Assembly (NCBI GenBank): GCA_014730165.1
Contig: WJIS01000047.1
Coordinates: forward strand, 1 to 50,107
DNA length: 50,107 bases
Direction of reading: 5' to 3'
Source of the DNA: Promethearchaeota archaeon
GTDB lineage: Archaea > Asgardarchaeota > Lokiarchaeia > Sigyniarchaeales > SOKP01
A program made the position numbers and the translations under genes. The notes below the pieces were generated by a model. It made no database searches. It was not told the DNA's origin and worked only from the letters and a program-made list of their open reading frames with translations. Of this stretch, positions 193-44,539 are shown one piece after another; the first letter of the stretch is position 1, and each line of letters begins with the position of its first letter.

Positions 193-239
193 AAATCTAC
201 TTCCTTTGGAACTGATTATAAGTCAGAGAGGTGTGTTCT

Positions 240-1157
240 ATTAGCCAGAGTAAATATATTTCCCAACCAGAATGGAAGGTTTTAGAGGAGCTCAAGGGAT
301 TGGTAAAGAGGGAGCTTAATTATGTAGAAAAGGTAAATTGGAAAGCAGATTTTGCGGTCTCCATTGAAAATAATCATGTTTCCGCGCTTTCGCTTTATGA
401 TTATATGCTTTCAACCCTTCCGGGTTCTATTAAGGAATTTAAACAACTGAAACATCTATTTTTGATGAAGAACCAACTGAAGGAGTTTCCTATTGAAATT
501 ACTCAAATGTATTTTTTAAATTCTTTATATTTGCGCGAAAACCAATTAGTCAAGATACCCGAATCGATAGGAAATCTTACACAGCTTAAAGAATTGGATT
601 TAGGTAGGAATCAATTGGTCAAGATACCCGAATCCATCGGAAATCTTACACAGCTTGAAAAATTTTCTTTAGGAGAGAATCAATTGGTCGAGATACCCGA
701 ATCCATCGGAAATCTTACACAGCTTGAAGAGTTTTCTTTAGGAGAGAATCAATTGATCGAGATACCCGAATCCATCGGAAATCTTACACAGGTTAAAGAT
801 TTTAATTTAGATAGGAATCAATTAGAAGAGGTACCCGCGTCTATCGGGAATCTGAAATCCTTAAAATTCTTAAGGTTAAGTGATAATAATTTAACAGAAA
901 TTCCAAAATCCATCGGAAATTTAAGATCACTTGAATATCTTACGCTTTCCATTAACAAACTGAGATTAATTCCGGAAACCTTGAGAAATCTTACAAACTT
1001 AAAAGAGATTTGGATTACGGGTAATCCTTTAGTGAAGTATCCATACGCGTTAAATGAGTTGCCCAATCTAAAATATATTAAAATAGGTTCGAAGTTAAAT
1101 CAGATATTTGAATCAGAATTCAACGAATTAAGAGCTAAGGGTGTTCAAGAATACTAA
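240..1157 (+). CDS. Leucine-rich-repeat protein, start probably ATT
   Basis: About 305 residues. After an N-terminal segment of roughly 60 residues (WKVLEELKGL, then a helix) come about nine LRRs of 23 residues with the pattern NQLxxIPESIGNLTQLxxLxL, the intracellular plant/Ras-binding type of LRR common in Asgard archaea. Such proteins are protein-interaction scaffolds, often linked to small GTPases, and it sits between a GTPase remnant and an intact GTPase. A GTG at 231 is in frame, but it lies inside a GGTG Shine-Dalgarno (230-233); ATT at 240, six bases after that motif, fits the initiation pattern of other genes here. There is no signal peptide or membrane segment. The partner is unknown. 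Confidence 0.8.
   Translation: MSQSKYISQPEWKVLEELKGLVKRELNYVEKVNWKADFAVSIENNHVSALSLYDYMLSTLPGSIKEFKQLKHLFLMKNQLKEFPIEITQMYFLNSLYLRENQLVKIPESIGNLTQLKELDLGRNQLVKIPESIGNLTQLEKFSLGENQLVEIPESIGNLTQLEEFSLGENQLIEIPESIGNLTQVKDFNLDRNQLEEVPASIGNLKSLKFLRLSDNNLTEIPKSIGNLRSLEYLTLSINKLRLIPETLRNLTNLKEIWITGNPLVKYPYALNELPNLKYIKIGSKLNQIFESEFNELRAKGVQEY
543..818 (+). repeat. Four near-identical 69-bp tandem repeats inside the LRR gene
   Basis: Units begin at 543, 612, 681 and 750, exactly 69 bp (23 codons) apart, each starting CAATT. Units 2 and 3 differ at only three positions by my reading; units 1 and 4 differ at more. The flanking LRRs (from 819 onward) match in protein pattern but not in DNA, so the central units are a recent tandem expansion within an older repeat gene. 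Confidence 0.85.
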
Positions 1158-1418
1158 AATCTACTTTCTTTCTATAATTTCTAAATGTAATCACCTATCG
1201 ACTTTTGAAGTAATAATCGGCTAGTAAATCCTATTTACATTAAGTATGGATAGGAAATCTATTTCAATCGATCATCATTGGATATCTATAACACAATGTA
1301 TTTATTTATCCGAATAAATATATTAATCTTAATTTATCTCAAATAAAATCTAAAATTTTTTTAGGTAAAATAGTTTTATTCTGCTATAAATAAATAATTG
1401 TTAAAGGTGTGAAACGAA

Positions 1419-2660
1419 ATTCCTTCAGATAAAGAAAATTCTACAGGAATAGAAGTCTTCAAGAATTTTTTGGATGAGGAATATTTAGAGAATGATTTAG
1501 CATCGATTGATGAAATATCAGAATTACCAATATCAGCATTTAAATTTTTAGATAAAAAAGAAGCAAGAGTTATTACAGAAATATTCAAAACCTCAAATAT
1601 TAAAGATCTTGGAAAATTAGATAAAAATGAACCTATGAAAAATTATTTTGAGCAAAGTAAATCTAAAAAAAACTCCGATATTTCTCAGGATATTGGGATC
1701 AAATTTGAGATATATAAAAAGAAATATGCTAATCTCGAGGATCATTTGAAAAAGGCTATCATCCTTTCATCTTTATTAATTGAAGTTGAGGGAGAGACCC
1801 AAGTCTTAGATAAGAACACTCAAAAAATCATTGTTGTGGGATTGCAGTTGGCAGGAAAAACTTCAATTATCAATAGGGTTGGGCTCGAGAAAGGAATTGA
1901 AAAATTATCTAATTTAGAGCCAACCAAAGGAGTAAATCGGCAAACTCTTCACAGACCAAATTACGATTTAATTATATGGGATTTTGGTGGGCAAGAGAAG
2001 TACAGAGACAAATATCTTCAAGATCCAGAAAGATACTTTCTCCAAATTGATCTCCTCATCTATGTTATTGATGTTCAAGATTCGGAGAGATTCGATGAAA
2101 CTTTTGAATATTTTGAGAAAATTATTGATATAATCAAGGTTTTAGAGGAAAATCCATATATTCTCATCTTAATTCACAAGTTTGACCCTGATATCGCTGA
2201 CGATCCTAAGATTTTGTTAAATGTTGAATTAGTAAAAGACAAAATAAATGAGATTTTCCGTAAAAAACAATATAACTATGAATATGAAACCTATGCAACC
2301 TCAATTTATTCTACCTTATCTCGAGAACCAAAATTTTCTAAATATGTAAAAGATGTGATCAACGCTCGCTTTTCTTTAACTGATCCCACAATAAGAAAAG
2401 TTGAAGCTCTGGGAAAGACTCTCGAAGAGACTATGAATGCCGTAATAAGATTGTCTGAGAGTTTAACACAGGATCTTAACGAAATAGATGCAAGACTCAA
2501 TGCGATTGAAAGCGGAGCTTTCCATATTGCTCAAAGTGGAGTTCCATTGGAAATAAGATCTTCCGATCAGATTAGAGAATCCAGTGAACTGAACGTACGT
2601 TCTAATGTACTTAACGAGTTGAAGGAGTTATTCGCAAAGAAGAAGAAACTTGATCAATAA
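1419..2660 (+). CDS. Arf/Rag-like GTPase with extra N-terminal and C-terminal domains
   Basis: About 413 residues from an ATT start at 1419 (GGTG at 1406-1409, spacing 9); the first conventional start is TTG 1470, 17 residues later. The N-terminal ~120 residues are helical and may include a helix-hairpin-helix-like stretch. The G domain shows P-loop GLQLAGKTS (141-148), G3 WDFGGQ (187-192) and G4 HKFD (253-256). The HKxD form of G4 and the WDxGGQ form of G3 recall Rag/Gtr and Arf GTPases rather than Ras/Rab. The last ~90 residues form a probable coiled coil (LSESLTQDLNEIDARL) with a Lys-rich tail. It presumably acts as a GTP-dependent switch; cellular role unknown. A paralogue lacking the P-loop lies 360 bp downstream. 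Confidence 0.85.
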   Translation: MPSDKENSTGIEVFKNFLDEEYLENDLASIDEISELPISAFKFLDKKEARVITEIFKTSNIKDLGKLDKNEPMKNYFEQSKSKKNSDISQDIGIKFEIYKKKYANLEDHLKKAIILSSLLIEVEGETQVLDKNTQKIIVVGLQLAGKTSIINRVGLEKGIEKLSNLEPTKGVNRQTLHRPNYDLIIWDFGGQEKYRDKYLQDPERYFLQIDLLIYVIDVQDSERFDETFEYFEKIIDIIKVLEENPYILILIHKFDPDIADDPKILLNVELVKDKINEIFRKKQYNYEYETYATSIYSTLSREPKFSKYVKDVINARFSLTDPTIRKVEALGKTLEETMNAVIRLSESLTQDLNEIDARLNAIESGAFHIAQSGVPLEIRSSDQIRESSELNVRSNVLNELKELFAKKKKLDQ

Positions 2661-10320: not shown

Positions 10321-10548
10321 TACTAAGTTAGTTACAAACTGAGATTAATTCTATAAAAAATAAATATTCAAAAAAATCGTAAGATTAGCTCATTTTTCGC
10401 ATCTGGAAGAGTTATGTTCTAAAGTTCCTAAAGATAATTCAAGACATTCCCAGATTTTAAAAAGATTTAATAAAGTATTACACTACTTAAATAGTAATTA
10501 AAAAATTAAAAATACAACAATTAACTCAATTCTAAACGGTGAAATATC

Positions 10549-11940
10549 ATTTCAGAAACTGAACTAAAATTTAGAAATATAACCGAATATTTTTTCTCAC
10601 CTTTTAATACTTATGTATATTTGAATATAGATGAAATCAGATATGAAGATAATATCCATTTACAAGGAAAAATCATCGAAAAACTAAATGAAATTAATAT
10701 TAAAATAAATTCAAAAGATTATGGCATTAAATGGGGTACGGAAGCTGCCGATAAGCTGAAAATCTCTAAAGGAGTATTTGCCCCTATCTCAAAAGAGGAC
10801 TCCTTCATCATGGGCTATTTGGTGACGGATGCTGAAGATCCGAATTCCCTTCCTATAGAAAAAAGAATTGCAAATCTATTTGAACCTTACTCTCTTAAAT
10901 TTACAAATGTTAAGTTTTATATTCATGCCGCGGGCGTTGCACAATGTAGTGTGCAGGTTGAGATTGAAAGAGAAGAAAAGCTATCAATCGTGCAAATAGA
11001 ACAAGTTTCAGAGGATCTTAACCAACTTTTTAAAGAATTTTTTGAAGAAATCTGTTATCAAATAACTTTAAAATATAATAAGACTGTGAGAGAATTAGAT
11101 GTGCCCATGTTTGACTTAGAGCATCTTCCGGATGTATTGAATATTACTAAAGCAGAGAAGAGTTCAATTATACTTCCGTGGTCTCATAGAATTTATCATA
11201 TTCATGATAAAGCCTTGTTCCAACTTGAAAATCCTGGTGATCCCTTTAAATTCTTACTCACACCTTCAAAAAAAATGGATATAGTTGACTTCTCAATCTA
11301 CGATAATAGATATATCTATTTTGGTTGGGGGCATAGTATTGTATTTACAAAGGATATGGATTCGGGATTTTCACAGACTAATTCTGAACCATACGAGTAT
11401 GTACGCTTAGTAGAAATCGCCCAAGTGAACTGGCGATCAGTAGAAGTGCTCGATGAGATTATGGATACAACTATCACATGGTTTAATTTAAATATTGAGG
11501 ATTTAGACCTTAAGACTATCAAAACTAATATTTATGATATCAGAGACTTTAATTTAGCCATAAAACGCATAATCGATAACTTTAGAAATGTAAAGATAAC
11601 TTTTGATACCGAAAAAAGAAATTTGTTGAGGGAATTACATGAAAGATGGAAGACCGAAGAATTATATGAAAACTTGGATATTAAATTGGATATGATTGAA
11701 GATACTCTTGAAGATCTCTACCAGAGACAAAAAGAGAAAAAAGATGATTCTCTCAATACAATCGTTTTAGCCTTTACTATAATTAGTCTTGTTGATGTAT
11801 TTTCAGCGATATTTGACATTATTTCTACGGATGTCGTTCTTACCTCTATTTTTCAAATAATTGTTCTTATTAGCGGAGTAGTAGCCTTAGGATTACTAAT
11901 TATTCTTTATCTTAGATTGTCAGAGAGAAAGGCTTATTGA
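10549..11940 (+). CDS. Soluble domain plus two C-terminal membrane helices, start probably ATT
   Basis: About 463 residues from ATT 10549, which lies seven bases after GGTG (10538-10541). The first conventional in-frame start is TTG 10621, 24 codons later, although coding character (SETELKFRNITEYFFSPF) extends back to the ATT. A large soluble part of ~390 residues has a predicted coiled-coil stretch (KLDMIEDTLEDLYQRQKEKK) directly before two helices at the C-terminus. The layout recalls CorA or Rmd1/DUF155 proteins, but the CorA GMN motif is absent. The membrane-Nudix protein at 29774-31459 has the same coiled-coil-then-two-helices plan. Function unknown; a membrane-tethered sensor or organiser is conceivable. 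Confidence 0.75.
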   Translation: MSETELKFRNITEYFFSPFNTYVYLNIDEIRYEDNIHLQGKIIEKLNEINIKINSKDYGIKWGTEAADKLKISKGVFAPISKEDSFIMGYLVTDAEDPNSLPIEKRIANLFEPYSLKFTNVKFYIHAAGVAQCSVQVEIEREEKLSIVQIEQVSEDLNQLFKEFFEEICYQITLKYNKTVRELDVPMFDLEHLPDVLNITKAEKSSIILPWSHRIYHIHDKALFQLENPGDPFKFLLTPSKKMDIVDFSIYDNRYIYFGWGHSIVFTKDMDSGFSQTNSEPYEYVRLVEIAQVNWRSVEVLDEIMDTTITWFNLNIEDLDLKTIKTNIYDIRDFNLAIKRIIDNFRNVKITFDTEKRNLLRELHERWKTEELYENLDIKLDMIEDTLEDLYQRQKEKKDDSLNTIVLAFTIISLVDVFSAIFDIISTDVVLTSIFQIIVLISGVVALGLLIILYLRLSERKAY

Positions 11941-15405: not shown

Positions 15406-17082
15406 ATGATGCAAAAAGAAGAATCTGCTGCTGAAAAGCCAAAAACGAAAAAAACAGAACTCTCTCTAACATTAAAAACTGAGAGATACTTTTCAAAACC
15501 AAAATATCGTAAAATATTAGATGGAATTACAATTTCATTTTTTGTTTTAGTAATAATTGGCCCTATTATTAACATCTTTTCTACTATATTATTAAATATT
15601 CCATCAATTTCTCATGATGTATTCAATGATGAATTAATTGGCGCATTACAATGGTATAATATATTAGAATCATTAAGTGTATCGTTCACGATAGCATCTG
15701 TGGCAGTTATATTTGATATAATTATTGCATTGCCAATCTCAATCATTTTGACACGGTATAATTTCCGTGGAAAAAAGTTTTTAGATGCTATTGTTGACCT
15801 CCCTATGGCTGTTCCCACAAGTGCCTTGGGCTTTTCTGTATTATTATTTTGGAGATTATTTGGAATCAATCCGGGCTATACTTTAATAATTTTCGGACAT
15901 ATCGTCTTTACATTCCCATATATAGTAAGAAATATGAAAATAGTACTCGAAAAATCCAGTGTATTGTACGAAGATGCTGCTCGAACTCTAGGAGCACCTG
16001 GTATCACTGTATTTAGGACCATAACACTCCCAATGATGAAGGAAGGAATAATTGCTGGAGCAATTTTAGCATTTACTCGTTCATTAGGAGAAACAGGAGC
16101 AACAATTATTCTTTCAGGACTTGTTGAAACTGCTCCAATCTTGATTGTGGGTTTTAGAAGACAGCTCGAGATACCATCTGCTTCCTTTCTTGCTGGAATT
16201 TTGATCACGGTGTCAATATTACTTCTTTTTTCTATAAAAATTTTTACAAGAAAAGTAAAATTCCCAGTAAAGAGGATATGGCCCGAAACAGAAAAATATC
16301 TCAGTAAGAAGCCATTTCGATATTTTCGCGATGGATTTTCATTAATCGTTCTTTTAATTGTAATATTAATACCTTCTTTCTTTATCATTACTCAAATCAC
16401 TGAAGGAAACCTAGCAGAAGAATTATTTCTCGCTAAGGATTACAAATGGGCATATTTATATACTAGTTTCATAGATTCTATTAGTGTGGGGGTTTTAGCT
16501 GTATTTATTAATCTCATATTTGGGATTCCTCTTGCGATGATTATTACAAAACGGAACTGGGGGAAATTCATTACTATTCTAGATACAATTTTAGATGTTC
16601 CCATTGCCATACCTTCAGCTGCATTAGGATTTGCTATATTTCTTTTTTGGGGCCCTGCTGGTTTGAATTTTTTTCAACCTGGGTTTTATATGATTTTATT
16701 TGTGCATATTTCATTTACTTTTCCATATATGGTACGTCCAATTATTAGTGTATTGGAACAGTCTAATGAGGGCGTTGAAGAGGCAGCAAGAACTTTAGGT
16801 GCCTCAAATATTACAGTATTTCGAAAAATAACGCTCCCAAATATCAAGCAAGGAATAATTGCGGGGAGTATTATGGTTTTCACTCGTTCATTAGGAGAAA
16901 CAGGAGCAACTATAGTTGTAATGGGTCGCGTTAGAACAATACCTGTTTTAATTGTTGACTGGGTAGAAGCAAATGTATTTGCCAGTGCGATATTTGCTAG
17001 TTTGCTAGTGATTTTATTTAGTGCATTTCTGATTTTTTTACTTAGATCAATCCGTAAAAAAGGTGATGTCATAGTTGCCTGA
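15406..17082 (+). CDS. Double-domain ABC importer permease
   Basis: 558 residues holding two fused BPD_transp_1 permease domains, about 12 membrane helices. Each half carries an EAA loop and the following helix: AARTLGAPGITVFRTITLP then TRSLGETGATIIL in the first, AARTLGASNITVFRKITLP then TRSLGETGATIVV in the second. The two halves clearly come from internal duplication. The SLGETGAT segment is typical of sulfate, molybdate, thiamine and ferric-iron permeases. It begins 30 bp after the binding-protein gene and overlaps the first ATPase gene by 8 bp. Two different coupling loops match two different ATPases, consistent with an asymmetric transporter. Confidence 0.9.
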   Translation: MMQKEESAAEKPKTKKTELSLTLKTERYFSKPKYRKILDGITISFFVLVIIGPIINIFSTILLNIPSISHDVFNDELIGALQWYNILESLSVSFTIASVAVIFDIIIALPISIILTRYNFRGKKFLDAIVDLPMAVPTSALGFSVLLFWRLFGINPGYTLIIFGHIVFTFPYIVRNMKIVLEKSSVLYEDAARTLGAPGITVFRTITLPMMKEGIIAGAILAFTRSLGETGATIILSGLVETAPILIVGFRRQLEIPSASFLAGILITVSILLLFSIKIFTRKVKFPVKRIWPETEKYLSKKPFRYFRDGFSLIVLLIVILIPSFFIITQITEGNLAEELFLAKDYKWAYLYTSFIDSISVGVLAVFINLIFGIPLAMIITKRNWGKFITILDTILDVPIAIPSAALGFAIFLFWGPAGLNFFQPGFYMILFVHISFTFPYMVRPIISVLEQSNEGVEEAARTLGASNITVFRKITLPNIKQGIIAGSIMVFTRSLGETGATIVVMGRVRTIPVLIVDWVEANVFASAIFASLLVILFSAFLIFLLRSIRKKGDVIVA

Positions 17083-18220: not shown

Positions 18221-18237
18221 ACAGATGGTGATACTTT

Positions 18238-19461
18238 ATAGTAAATATTAAACTAATGAATATAACTAAGAAATACGGTAAATTTAAAGCTCTAAGCAAT
18301 ATATCATTAGAAATAAAAGATAAAGAATATTTTATAGTATTAGGACCTACAGGTGCTGGTAAAACTTCGCTTCTTAAAGTGATAGCTGGATTAGTAAGTC
18401 CTGATGAAGGAGAAATACTATTTGACGGAATGCGAATAAACGAAAAACAACCCGGTGAAAGAAACTTAGGTTTTATGTTTGAAAATTATGCCCTTTTTCC
18501 TCATATGAATATAGTGGATAACATTTCTTATAGTAGTCGTGTTCATGCTCGTAATCCAGAATCAACCCAGAAAATAGTTCAACAATTTTTAATGATGACT
18601 CTACTTATGGGTAGAGATGATGCATTACCTAAGGAACTTAGTGGCGGTATGAAGCAGAGAGTTGCATTATCTAGAGCTTTAATGAATCTAGAACAAACTA
18701 AACTATTAATCTTAGATGAACCTTTAAAAGCTTTAGATGCTGGTTTAAGAAATAGTCTTAGACGAGAATTATTAAATATGGCAAAATCTTCAATTTTAGA
18801 CCTAACAGTAATTCATGTTACTAATGATCAACGTGAAGCTATGATGGTTGCAGACCGAATAGCATTGATTAATCAAGGAAAAGTAGTTCAAGTTGGTACA
18901 CCTCATGAAATATATTATCACCCCCGTAATTTATTTGTTGCTTATTTTATGAGCGAAATAAATTATTTTGAAGGTAAATGTGTAAAAAATTCAAAAAGAA
19001 AAGGAGAACTTCACAAAATATCAACAAAAAGTGACAAATTTTTAAAACAAATTCAAGAGGATTCATTACTGCTTCCAATTGATATTGGCATAGATAAAAT
19101 ATTCACTGTATATACCGATCATCAGAAATTTGAAACGATTGATGATGGCGATAATATATTACTTGTAGTAAGAGCTAATCATTTTAAAATTAGGGAAGGA
19201 AATCGATTGAAGGATAAAAAAAATGCATTTATAGGGTTGATTAAGAGAAGAAAATTTATGGGTGTTTTTTATAGATTTGAAGTTTTAGTTAAAATAAATA
19301 ATAAAGAAAAAAGATTAATTATTTCTATCCCCGCCACAACAGAAATACACCAAAAATTCCAAGAAGGTTCAAATGTGACAGTTTATTTCCCAGAGGAATT
19401 GGGAATAATATTTAAACATCCTGGAAAGGATGAAATTAATAGAATTATGAGTTTAGTATGA
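18238..19461 (+). CDS. ABC importer ATPase 2, degenerate Q-loop and H-switch, start probably ATA
   Basis: About 407 residues from ATA 18238, seven bases after GGTG (18227-18230). ATG 18256 is the first conventional start but would cut into the first strand: VNIKLMNITKKYG aligns with PEIKLENITKHF of ATPase 1. Walker A GPTGAGKTS, Walker B LLILDE and a canonical signature LSGGM (134-138) are present, but the Q-loop has Glu82 for Gln (FMFEN) and the switch His is Asn196 (HVTNDQ). These defects complement those of ATPase 1, predicting a heterodimer with one consensus and one degenerate site. TOBE-like C-terminal half. Confidence 0.85.
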   Translation: MVNIKLMNITKKYGKFKALSNISLEIKDKEYFIVLGPTGAGKTSLLKVIAGLVSPDEGEILFDGMRINEKQPGERNLGFMFENYALFPHMNIVDNISYSSRVHARNPESTQKIVQQFLMMTLLMGRDDALPKELSGGMKQRVALSRALMNLEQTKLLILDEPLKALDAGLRNSLRRELLNMAKSSILDLTVIHVTNDQREAMMVADRIALINQGKVVQVGTPHEIYYHPRNLFVAYFMSEINYFEGKCVKNSKRKGELHKISTKSDKFLKQIQEDSLLLPIDIGIDKIFTVYTDHQKFETIDDGDNILLVVRANHFKIREGNRLKDKKNAFIGLIKRRKFMGVFYRFEVLVKINNKEKRLIISIPATTEIHQKFQEGSNVTVYFPEELGIIFKHPGKDEINRIMSLV

Positions 19462-38059: not shown

Positions 38060-38428
38060 TCATTTTTCATTTCTTTGAGATGCCCATTTAATTAATGGAA
38101 TCATCAAATCTCTAAGCTCCTTCCCATCCATAGTTAGGGAATATTCAACTCGTGGGGGTATCTCAGCAAAAGCTTCTCTCCTCAGTATTCCTGCTTCTTC
38201 TAGCTCTTTTAATCTGTCAGATAATGTTTTTGGTGTAATTCTTTCTAACCCCTTTATAATCTCATTAAATCTAATTTTCTGATGATTTCCTATAATACTA
38301 ATGATGAGCAATGCCCATTTTTTACTGATTAAATTAATTGTATTTTGAATTGAACAGAGACAAACATCGCTATTTCCAACGATAGTATTGGTACAAGGGA
38401 TATTCTCTTTATTACTTTCCTTTTGAAT
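38060..38428 (-). CDS. HxlR-family regulator with Cys-rich N-terminus, start probably ATT
   Basis: 122 residues from ATT 38428, seven bases after GGTG (38436-38439). Conventional starts begin only at TTG 38311, which lies inside the conserved HxlR core: ISKKWALLIISIIG must be included to match the family's GGKWTLLILREL. Winged-helix landmarks follow: RFNEIIKGLERITPKTLSDR, LKELEEAGIL and PPRVEYSLTMDGKEL. The recovered N-terminus contains Cys12, Cys23 and Cys25; in the related YodB/HypR regulators an N-terminal Cys senses quinones or oxidants. It is divergent from a Cys-rich peptide and a CopD-like gene, its likely targets. Confidence 0.85.
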   Translation of the reverse strand: MQKESNKENIPCTNTIVGNSDVCLCSIQNTINLISKKWALLIISIIGNHQKIRFNEIIKGLERITPKTLSDRLKELEEAGILRREAFAEIPPRVEYSLTMDGKELRDLMIPLIKWASQRNEK

Positions 38429-38554
38429 AGTATATCACCTAATTATTACTTACTATTCTATTTTAAACTTAATCATTTAAATACTTTACTAAATATACTA
38501 AATATGAAAAATATAGTAATTAGAAAAAACAATAACTAAAGGTGATCGAAAAAA
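38429..38554. promoter_or_regulatory. Divergent promoter region of HxlR regulator and Cys-rich peptide
   Basis: 126 bp shared by the two genes, with GGTGA Shine-Dalgarno sequences facing outward at both ends. In the middle are a direct repeat CTAAATATACTAAATAT (about 38493-38509) and the outer inverted pair TTACTA/TAGTAA, suitable as an operator for the HxlR dimer. TATA-like stretches exist for both directions. Confidence 0.4.
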
Positions 38555-43740: not shown

Positions 43741-43936
43741 ATCCAATATAAAAATGATATATTGATAAATAAGAATCATTTCTTTTAACCTACATAATTA
43801 AATCAAAGAGATACAGATAAATGCTTATTTTTATAATAAATAAATAGGATGAAGTCTCTTAAAACCACAAATTATTAATTTTATAGTTCATTTTTACCTT
43901 TATCTATATTTTTATCCATATTATCGGTGTGTTATT

Positions 43937-44539
43937 ATTTTTAAATTGATTACAATTAAAGGGAAACTGGAAATTCCACCATTCCTTTTTGATCAATCGA
44001 AAGAAGTTTCAGCTCGAATAATCCTTAATGAAGATTATTCTGGAACTATATCAAGAGAATACGGATTTGTTATCGCTGTTGTTGATGTGTTGAACGTATC
44101 TACAGGACAAATTATTCCTGGATCTGCTAATACGTTCCATGAAGTAGAATTTACAATATTAGCTTTCAAACCAACAGTTTCTGAAGTTGTAGAAGGAGAA
44201 ATAGTCGAGATTGTAGATTTTGGAGCCTTTATTCGGTTAGGACCATTAGATGGGCTAGTTCACGTTAGTCAAATTACAGATGATTATATATCCTATGAAC
44301 AAGTAGGAAATCGATTTATAGGAAAAGAAACAGGAAAAATATTGGAAGTTAATGATATAGTAAGAGCAAAAGTGATTGCGGTTTCGCTTGGAGGAGGAAG
44401 AAGCGGAAAGTTAGGGTTATCTATGAGGAGTCCTTATCTCGGTAAAACAGACTGGATTGAAGATGACATTGAAAATTATTACGAAAAAAAGAAAACTAAA
44501 GAAGCAAAGGAAGCCAAAGAAGAAGTAATAGAAGGATAA
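43937..44539 (+). CDS. rpo7: RNA polymerase subunit Rpo7 (RpoE', Rpb7 homologue), start ATT
   Basis: 200 residues. The N-terminal tip domain is followed by an S1 domain (VEGEIVEIVDFGAFIRLGPL, GLVHVSQI, ISLGGGRSGK-like loop, LSMRSPYLGKTDWIE). Rpo7 pairs with Rpo4 to form the stalk of archaeal RNA polymerase. Archaeal Rpo7 begins M-(Y/F)-K-(I/L)-x-x-(I/V). This is matched exactly by ATT TTT AAA TTG ATT ACA ATT at 43937, with GGTG at 43926-43929; the only conventional start nearby, TTG 43946, would remove the conserved MFK. The gene opens the conserved cluster rpo7-spt4-dephospho-CoA kinase-eS24-eS31-kae1-bud32. Confidence 0.95.
   Translation: MFKLITIKGKLEIPPFLFDQSKEVSARIILNEDYSGTISREYGFVIAVVDVLNVSTGQIIPGSANTFHEVEFTILAFKPTVSEVVEGEIVEIVDFGAFIRLGPLDGLVHVSQITDDYISYEQVGNRFIGKETGKILEVNDIVRAKVIAVSLGGGRSGKLGLSMRSPYLGKTDWIEDDIENYYEKKKTKEAKEAKEEVIEG

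Follow-up and report, generated by a model that had tools for sequence, protein, structure and literature searches.

Isoleucine codons as probable start codons behind a GGTG Shine-Dalgarno motif in rpo7 and other genes of a Lokiarchaeal genome

Where does translation of rpo7 begin when no canonical start codon stands at, or upstream of, the position of its first methionine? The question arises in a 50,107-nucleotide stretch of Lokiarchaeal DNA (the whole of which we call the window), contig C266 of a metagenome assembly, G000, that comprises 4.65 Mb in 392 contigs and is 97.8% complete with 4.9% contamination. The rpo7 frame opens at 43853, after a stop at 43850-43852, and a search of this frame from the stop to 43937 found no ATG, GTG or TTG. 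From 43937 the codons read ATT TTT AAA TTG ATT ACA, preceded by GGTG at 43926-43929 and a spacer of 7 nt, and the first canonical codon past the ATT is the TTG at 43946, which specifies residue 4. The features of the locus are as follows.

43850..43852, + strand: in-frame stop preceding the open rpo7 frame (sequence)
43897..43917, + strand: TATA-like A/T-rich stretch ctttatctatatttttatcc, probable promoter (inferred from sequence)
43926..43929, + strand: GGTG, putative Shine-Dalgarno (SD) motif predicted to pair with CACC of the 16S tail CTGGATCACCTCC (kept with ATT, ATA or ATC starts in relatives)
43930..43936, + strand: spacer of 7 nt (sequence, relatives)
43937..43939, + strand: ATT, predicted start codon of rpo7 in the Met1 column (homology, relatives)
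43937..44539, + strand: rpo7, RNA polymerase subunit Rpo7/RpoE', 200 aa plus stop (ORF, profile and structure matches)
43946..43948, + strand: TTG, the expected choice of a standard gene finder, with three conserved residues lost (sequence)

The product read from the ATT was compared with solved structures and with profile models. Residues 2-177 align with residues 2-179 of the Rpo7 chain 1go3_E, residues 1-178 align with a second solved Rpo7, 7ok0_E, and position 1 of the NCBIfam Rpo7 models TIGR00448 and PRK08563 matches residue 1. The match to TIGR00448 (183.8 bits over residues 1-176, against a cut-off of 124.2) assigns the protein to the Rpo7/RpoE' family, and the domains PF03876 (SHS2, Rpb7-N) and PF00575 (S1) were both found. 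Since these alignments begin at or next to residue 1, ATT 43937 is, on homology, the Met1 position of rpo7. Another in-frame ATT, at 43934, immediately precedes it; this codon is only 4 nt away from GGTG and is not part of the conserved start column, so that both spacing (7 nt) and homology favour 43937. A preliminary description of this DNA had likewise started rpo7 at ATT 43937, 7 nt past GGTG, with no canonical start upstream and a downstream TTG that deletes conserved residues. The coordinates, the Met1 alignment and the empty upstream frame agree with that account, and a start at TTG 43946 would remove three residues.

We read the rpo7 start column in 78 loci, which represent 50 distinct Lokiarchaeal genes. 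The column holds ATG in 28 genes, ATT, ATC or ATA (hereafter ATH, or AUH in the mRNA) in 19, and GTG or TTG in three, and the MFKL/IFKL homology spans it. GGTG lies 6-8 nt upstream, mostly at exactly 7 nt, in 18 of the 19 ATH-started genes, the sole exception being L052, which has an ATA start with GGTT. GGTG is found in none of the 28 ATG-started genes, where GGTA, GGTT or GGTC occurs in 15 and no GGT in 13. The association between GGTG and the choice of ATH or ATG gives a Fisher p of 4e-12, a value that overstates independence because the rows are phylogenetically related. When the 7-nt rpo7 layout was used as a pattern to scan genomes across the phylum, GGTG with ATH was recovered in 20 genomes of the family, including that of the window, and GGTA or GGTC with ATG in 11; the scan found no case in the family of GGTG with ATG, or of GGTA, GGTC or GGTT with ATH. 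The other four matches comprise three apparent chance matches and one distant Rpo7-like start. No relative was found in which an ATG stands elsewhere and the MFKL homology is lost. The proposal of ATT in the preliminary description is thus upheld for rpo7, although the set of codons is wider (AUU, AUA and AUC) and the link to GGTG is almost exclusive. These data also bear on the idea that the ATT is an ATG misread through assembly or sequencing error. G000 is indeed a fragmented and slightly contaminated metagenome assembly, but 19 distinct rpo7 genes, drawn from several genera and from independent studies, have ATH in this column, and GGTG accompanies it in nearly all of them; with ATT and GGTG present in independent assemblies, a read error is excluded at this site and we give the idea a negligible probability overall.

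To place these differences on a phylogeny, a tree was made from the rpo7 proteins with the first four residues left out. About 8-9 switches of the ATH label occur on this tree, at least six of them on well-supported branches. Among independent pairs that differ in the rpo7 codon, GGTG differs in the expected direction in five and in the opposite direction in none, with one tie (sign test p=0.06, the pairs being too few to reach 0.05). One sister pair reads GGTGtatcaaaATT in L075 and GGTAtgctgaaATG in L077. Upstream of rpo7 in L074, GGTG-N7-ATC TTT AAG stands just before ATG TTT AAA, so that the start region looks duplicated, and L078 carries a similar repeat. On its sequence, the L074 duplication resembles an intermediate in the replacement of an old ATH start by a new ATG.

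The wider use of ATH was measured in a sample of 1.36 Mb (29%) of G000 containing 1101 ORFs of at least 100 aa, by counting GGTG sites near ORF starts that lack an in-frame upstream ATG, GTG or TTG. At 7 nt after GGTG, ATH occupies 16 of 32 in-frame codons, compared with 2.3 expected (p=1.2e-11), and the canonical codons at these sites are ATG (4) and TTG (6). In the same 1.36 Mb, the control codons TTA, TAT and AAT total zero at 7 nt, and spacings of 4 nt and 10 nt show no excess of ATH. Over 6-8 nt the counts are ATT 17, ATA 9, ATC 3, ATG 17, TTG 12 and CTG 2, with GTG at zero. The other one-mismatch codons AAG, ACG and AGG, considered as further starts, also score zero at 6-8 nt in this sample and were rejected as unused. 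ATG is spread over 5-11 nt after GGTG, whereas the ATH excess is limited to 6-8 nt, in line with a weak codon depending on the best geometry. No comparable specific ATH excess accompanies GGAGG or AGGT, and that seen with GTGA occurs only in the register overlapping GGTGA. The excess corresponds to approximately 23 genes in 29% of the genome, which by extrapolation suggests approximately 80 AUH-started genes genome-wide, counting those with GGTG only.

The same counts speak to the possibility that the GTG within GGTG is the true start, either with a frameshift or, at a spacing of 6 nt, directly in frame. Every GGTG necessarily contains a GTG, and at 6 nt it is in frame, as in Kae1 (L051) and ThiD (L085). 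However, the enrichment is sharpest at 7 nt rather than 6; at 7 nt the GTG is out of frame, its frame meets stops at differing places in each species with no shared slippery site, and in the 1.36 Mb sample GTG scores zero as a start codon 6-8 nt after GGTG. We consider this explanation hardly credible.

The ATH habit appears patchy, since a 0.33 Mb sample of G064, a genome placed in the same genus and with ATG in rpo7, has ATH at none of 16 sites at 7 nt. Several TTG starts lie 6-8 nt after GGTG in that sample, and with no ATH excess but TTG in its place, start-codon habits evidently vary among close relatives. A homology scan against G064 and the family loci added few ATH cases, namely rpo7 and L125, in which an ATT after GAGGTAATCCAT is aligned with ATG; so small a number fits ATH starts in a few percent of genes. 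The preliminary description had proposed a genome-wide test for enrichment of ATT 6-9 bases after GGTG, and in 29% of the genome ATH is indeed enriched at 6-8 nt, most sharply at 7 nt. Its further suggestion that near-cognate starts are routine in the lineage holds for G000 but needs qualifying, as the habit is patchy and ATG is still the main start.

Five further genes of the window had been said to share the layout of rpo7.

10538..10551, + strand: GGTG, 7 nt, ATT at 10549; 463-aa ORF 10549-11940, with the next canonical codon 24 codons on
18227..18240, + strand: GGTG, 7 nt, ATA at 18238; ABC-transporter ATPase 18238-19461, with an alternative ATG six codons on
38426..38439, - strand: GGTG, 7 nt, ATT at 38428; HxlR-family regulator 38428-38060, with the next canonical codon, a TTG, within the HxlR domain
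230..242, + strand: GGTG, 6 nt, ATT at 240; leucine-rich-repeat ORF, ambiguous since GGTG supplies an in-frame GTG
1406..1421, + strand: GGTG, 9 nt, ATT at 1419; small-GTPase-like ORF, with weaker spacing

ATH follows GGTG in all five, but the exact 7-nt spacing is confined to those at 10549, 18238 and 38428, and the cases at 240 and 1419 are weaker. Elsewhere in the window, an ABC ATPase ORF opens at 17075 with a TTG 9 nt past GGTG, and the next canonical codon comes 33 codons later. Here the same style of SD precedes a UUG start.

Outside the window we looked for genes in which ATH lies 6-8 nt after GGTG and the next canonical codon falls inside the conserved region or very close to its beginning. 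LL-diaminopimelate aminotransferase (DapL, L124) with ATC and a HemK2/MTQ2-type methyltransferase (L087) with ATA are of this kind, and in these two genes and the HxlR regulator the next canonical codon lies 39-52 codons inside. To the same set belong, in G000, a Snf7/ESCRT-III protein (L230) with an ATA start after GGTG and a ubiquitin-conjugating enzyme E2 (UQ_con, L081) with an ATT start after GGTG; the versions of both proteins called by standard methods may be N-terminally truncated. The Spt4 gene, which adjoins rpo7, has ATT at the Spt4 Met column in L052 and L055, with an in-frame GTG three codons upstream as an alternative start. In L008 and L067 an ATT stands 8 nt after GGTG, one codon ahead of the Met column, and no ATG, GTG or TTG was found anywhere in the Spt4 frame. 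It could be argued that AUH in these genes is a sense codon, the real start being a canonical codon downstream (TTG 43946 in rpo7) and the homology upstream of it a relic. TTG is used as a start in G000, with 12 examples at 6-8 nt after GGTG. Such a start would leave unexplained the homology through residue 1 and the conserved GGTG 7 nt before AUH, would cost HxlR, DapL and the methyltransferase their first 39-52 codons, and has no codon to use in the Spt4 ORFs of L008 and L067; we regard it as very unlikely.

If AUH is the start codon, the translation machinery might be expected to carry a matching change. An initiator tRNA with an altered anticodon was considered and rejected: one initiator tRNA gene, which contains GGGCTCATAACCC and reads anticodon CAU, shows A1-U72 and a GGG/CCC stem, both of them archaeal hallmarks. 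The initiator-like anticodon stem pattern also matches a second CAT loop, GGGATCATAACCC, at 5274-5286 of contig C391 of G000. The 16S tail is ordinary (CACCTCC) and complementary to GGTG, so that rpo7 combines a GGTG facing the CACC of this tail at a sharp 7-nt spacing, as in SD-led initiation, with a codon one mismatch from AUG at the Met1 column and no canonical alternative.

The nearness of the putative promoter to the start codon raises a further alternative, in which GGTG or GGTA is mainly a transcription-start or leaderless signal, AUH is reached by a non-SD route and the link between them reflects promoter architecture. A distance of only about 20-40 nt separates the TATA-like stretch from the rpo7 start downstream of it, which would allow very short leaders (a promoter at 43897..43917 would probably give one of only about 10-15 nt), and archaeal mRNAs are often leaderless (PMC7531240). 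On the other hand, AUG is reported to be required for leaderless initiation (PMC5622118), and the 7-nt peak, the match between GGTG and the CACC of the 16S tail, and the recurrence of the layout in many unrelated genes all count against such a signal. The conservation of GGTG likewise argues against leaderless initiation, and this alternative seems to us unlikely.

Taken from sequence data, the start position, the covariation, the genome-wide enrichment and spacing, the normal initiator tRNA and the 16S tail make it highly probable that AUH initiation by ordinary Met-tRNAi, compensated by a well-spaced GGUG SD, operates in rpo7 and in a few percent of genes. Met-tRNAi, with anticodon CAU, would pair with A1 and U2 of AUH and the mismatch at position 3 would be tolerated, the residue inserted presumably being methionine. 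GGUG at exactly 7 nt (6-8 nt) upstream would pair with CACC of the 16S tail, and the resulting helix may keep AUH in the P site long enough to evade rejection by aIF1, with SD strength as the kinetic compensating force and aIF1 as the likely discriminator. On a return to AUG the strong SD would be lost (GGTA or none), such that SD and start codon co-evolve as a compensating pair. At rpo7, GGTG is missing before ATG more strictly than simple compensation predicts; genome-wide, by contrast, GGTG does precede ATG, at 17 sites 6-8 nt away.

aIF1 is the functional analogue of IF3, and its gene (SUI1), present in one copy, itself seems to have a near-cognate start. In G000 the frame opens right after a stop with AAA ATT AAC GAC GAC GAG ATA TGT, and no ATG, GTG or TTG was found in it before the zinc finger and about half of the protein. 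An archaeal aIF1 of known structure begins two residues inside this reading frame. G009 and G010, which also have ATT in rpo7, carry ATT at the same place in aIF1, with second and third codons that vary. The aIF1 ATT is not accompanied by a well-spaced GGTG, as GTGTGAT lies further off than 7 nt. With no GGTG at 7 nt, and with G009 and G010 compared from the ATT codon onward, we hold the ATT start of aIF1 less confidently than that of rpo7, and regard it as firm for G000 only. A 17-codon ORF (L179, 1377-1430, on contig C249 of G000) runs from ATG 1377 to TAA 1428-1430, its stop overlapping the aIF1 ATT (1426-1428) by one base; termination-reinitiation coupling at aIF1 is possible from this arrangement.

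Archaeal starts have been named as AUG, GUG and UUG (PMC6237735, PMC7531240), and in this respect the AUH starts described here depart from published SD-led initiation with aIF1, aIF1A and aIF2, although they share with it a GGUG register, a normal tRNAi and the presence of aIF1. In the aEF1A mRNA of Pyrococcus abyssi this register, GGAGGUGAUUUAAAUG, lies 6-7 nt before the start (PMC6237735), and in Prometheoarchaeum SD motifs are not prevalent at annotated starts (PMC7531240). Across prokaryotes the weak starts GUG and UUG go with stronger SDs (Belinky, Rogozin and Koonin, 2017; PMC5622118), which is the tendency seen here; however, that study describes a weak effect and almost no AUU (one AUG-to-AUU switch in 61,358), whereas AUH is frequent in our data and the link at rpo7 almost all-or-none. 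Within the Asgard archaea, the AtubA tubulin of a Kariarchaeaceae (Heimdall-group) genome was also re-started by homology at an ATT with a plausible ribosome-binding site (PMC13394414, 2026), but this is one gene of another group, called a 'rare ATT start codon', without genome-wide, comparative or SD-covariation analysis.

The closest parallel is bacterial infC, which encodes IF3 and has an AUU start with autocontrol by IF3 (Butler et al., 1987; Brombach and Pon, 1987; cited in PMC9845219). Like infC, the Lokiarchaeal genes use AUU on an SD-led mRNA, and aIF1 is a fidelity factor without a canonical start and with a conserved ATT. In contrast, the bacterial device is rare and confined to a single gene, whereas AUU, AUA and AUC here would serve approximately 80 genes (extrapolated) and show covariation with GGTG; aIF1 and IF3 are not homologues, and autocontrol by aIF1 is hypothetical. 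Because aIF1 is reported to destabilise complexes on non-AUG mRNA (PMC6237735), and in view of the infC parallel, a natural hypothesis is that AUH genes, aIF1 included, are aIF1-sensitive. We tentatively suggest that they might form a translational regulon read by aIF1, which, being AUU-started, would set its own level together with that of dozens of genes. On this still speculative reading, the targets, among them an RNA polymerase subunit, ESCRT-III and a ubiquitin E2, might be held to a set fidelity point. In the literature searched, which did not extend to subscription journals or preprints, we came across no account of archaea that routinely initiate at AUH.

So far AUU starts have counted as curiosities; it would be new for a whole lineage to initiate at all three isoleucine codons, each paired with a precisely spaced SD. 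Gene finders limited to ATG, GTG and TTG truncate or lose AUH-started proteins, so that Lokiarchaeal annotations would be affected generally, and the proteins at risk include the eukaryotic-signature ESCRT-III and E2 as well as transcription subunits. The family also offers a natural experiment on how start-codon recognition is traded off against SD pairing among the closest archaeal relatives of eukaryotes. Furthermore, the aIF1 case turns the feedback idea into a directly testable hypothesis and, if true, the regulon would have evolved independently in archaea, as a counterpart to the IF3/infC loop and to eukaryotic eIF1 autoregulation.
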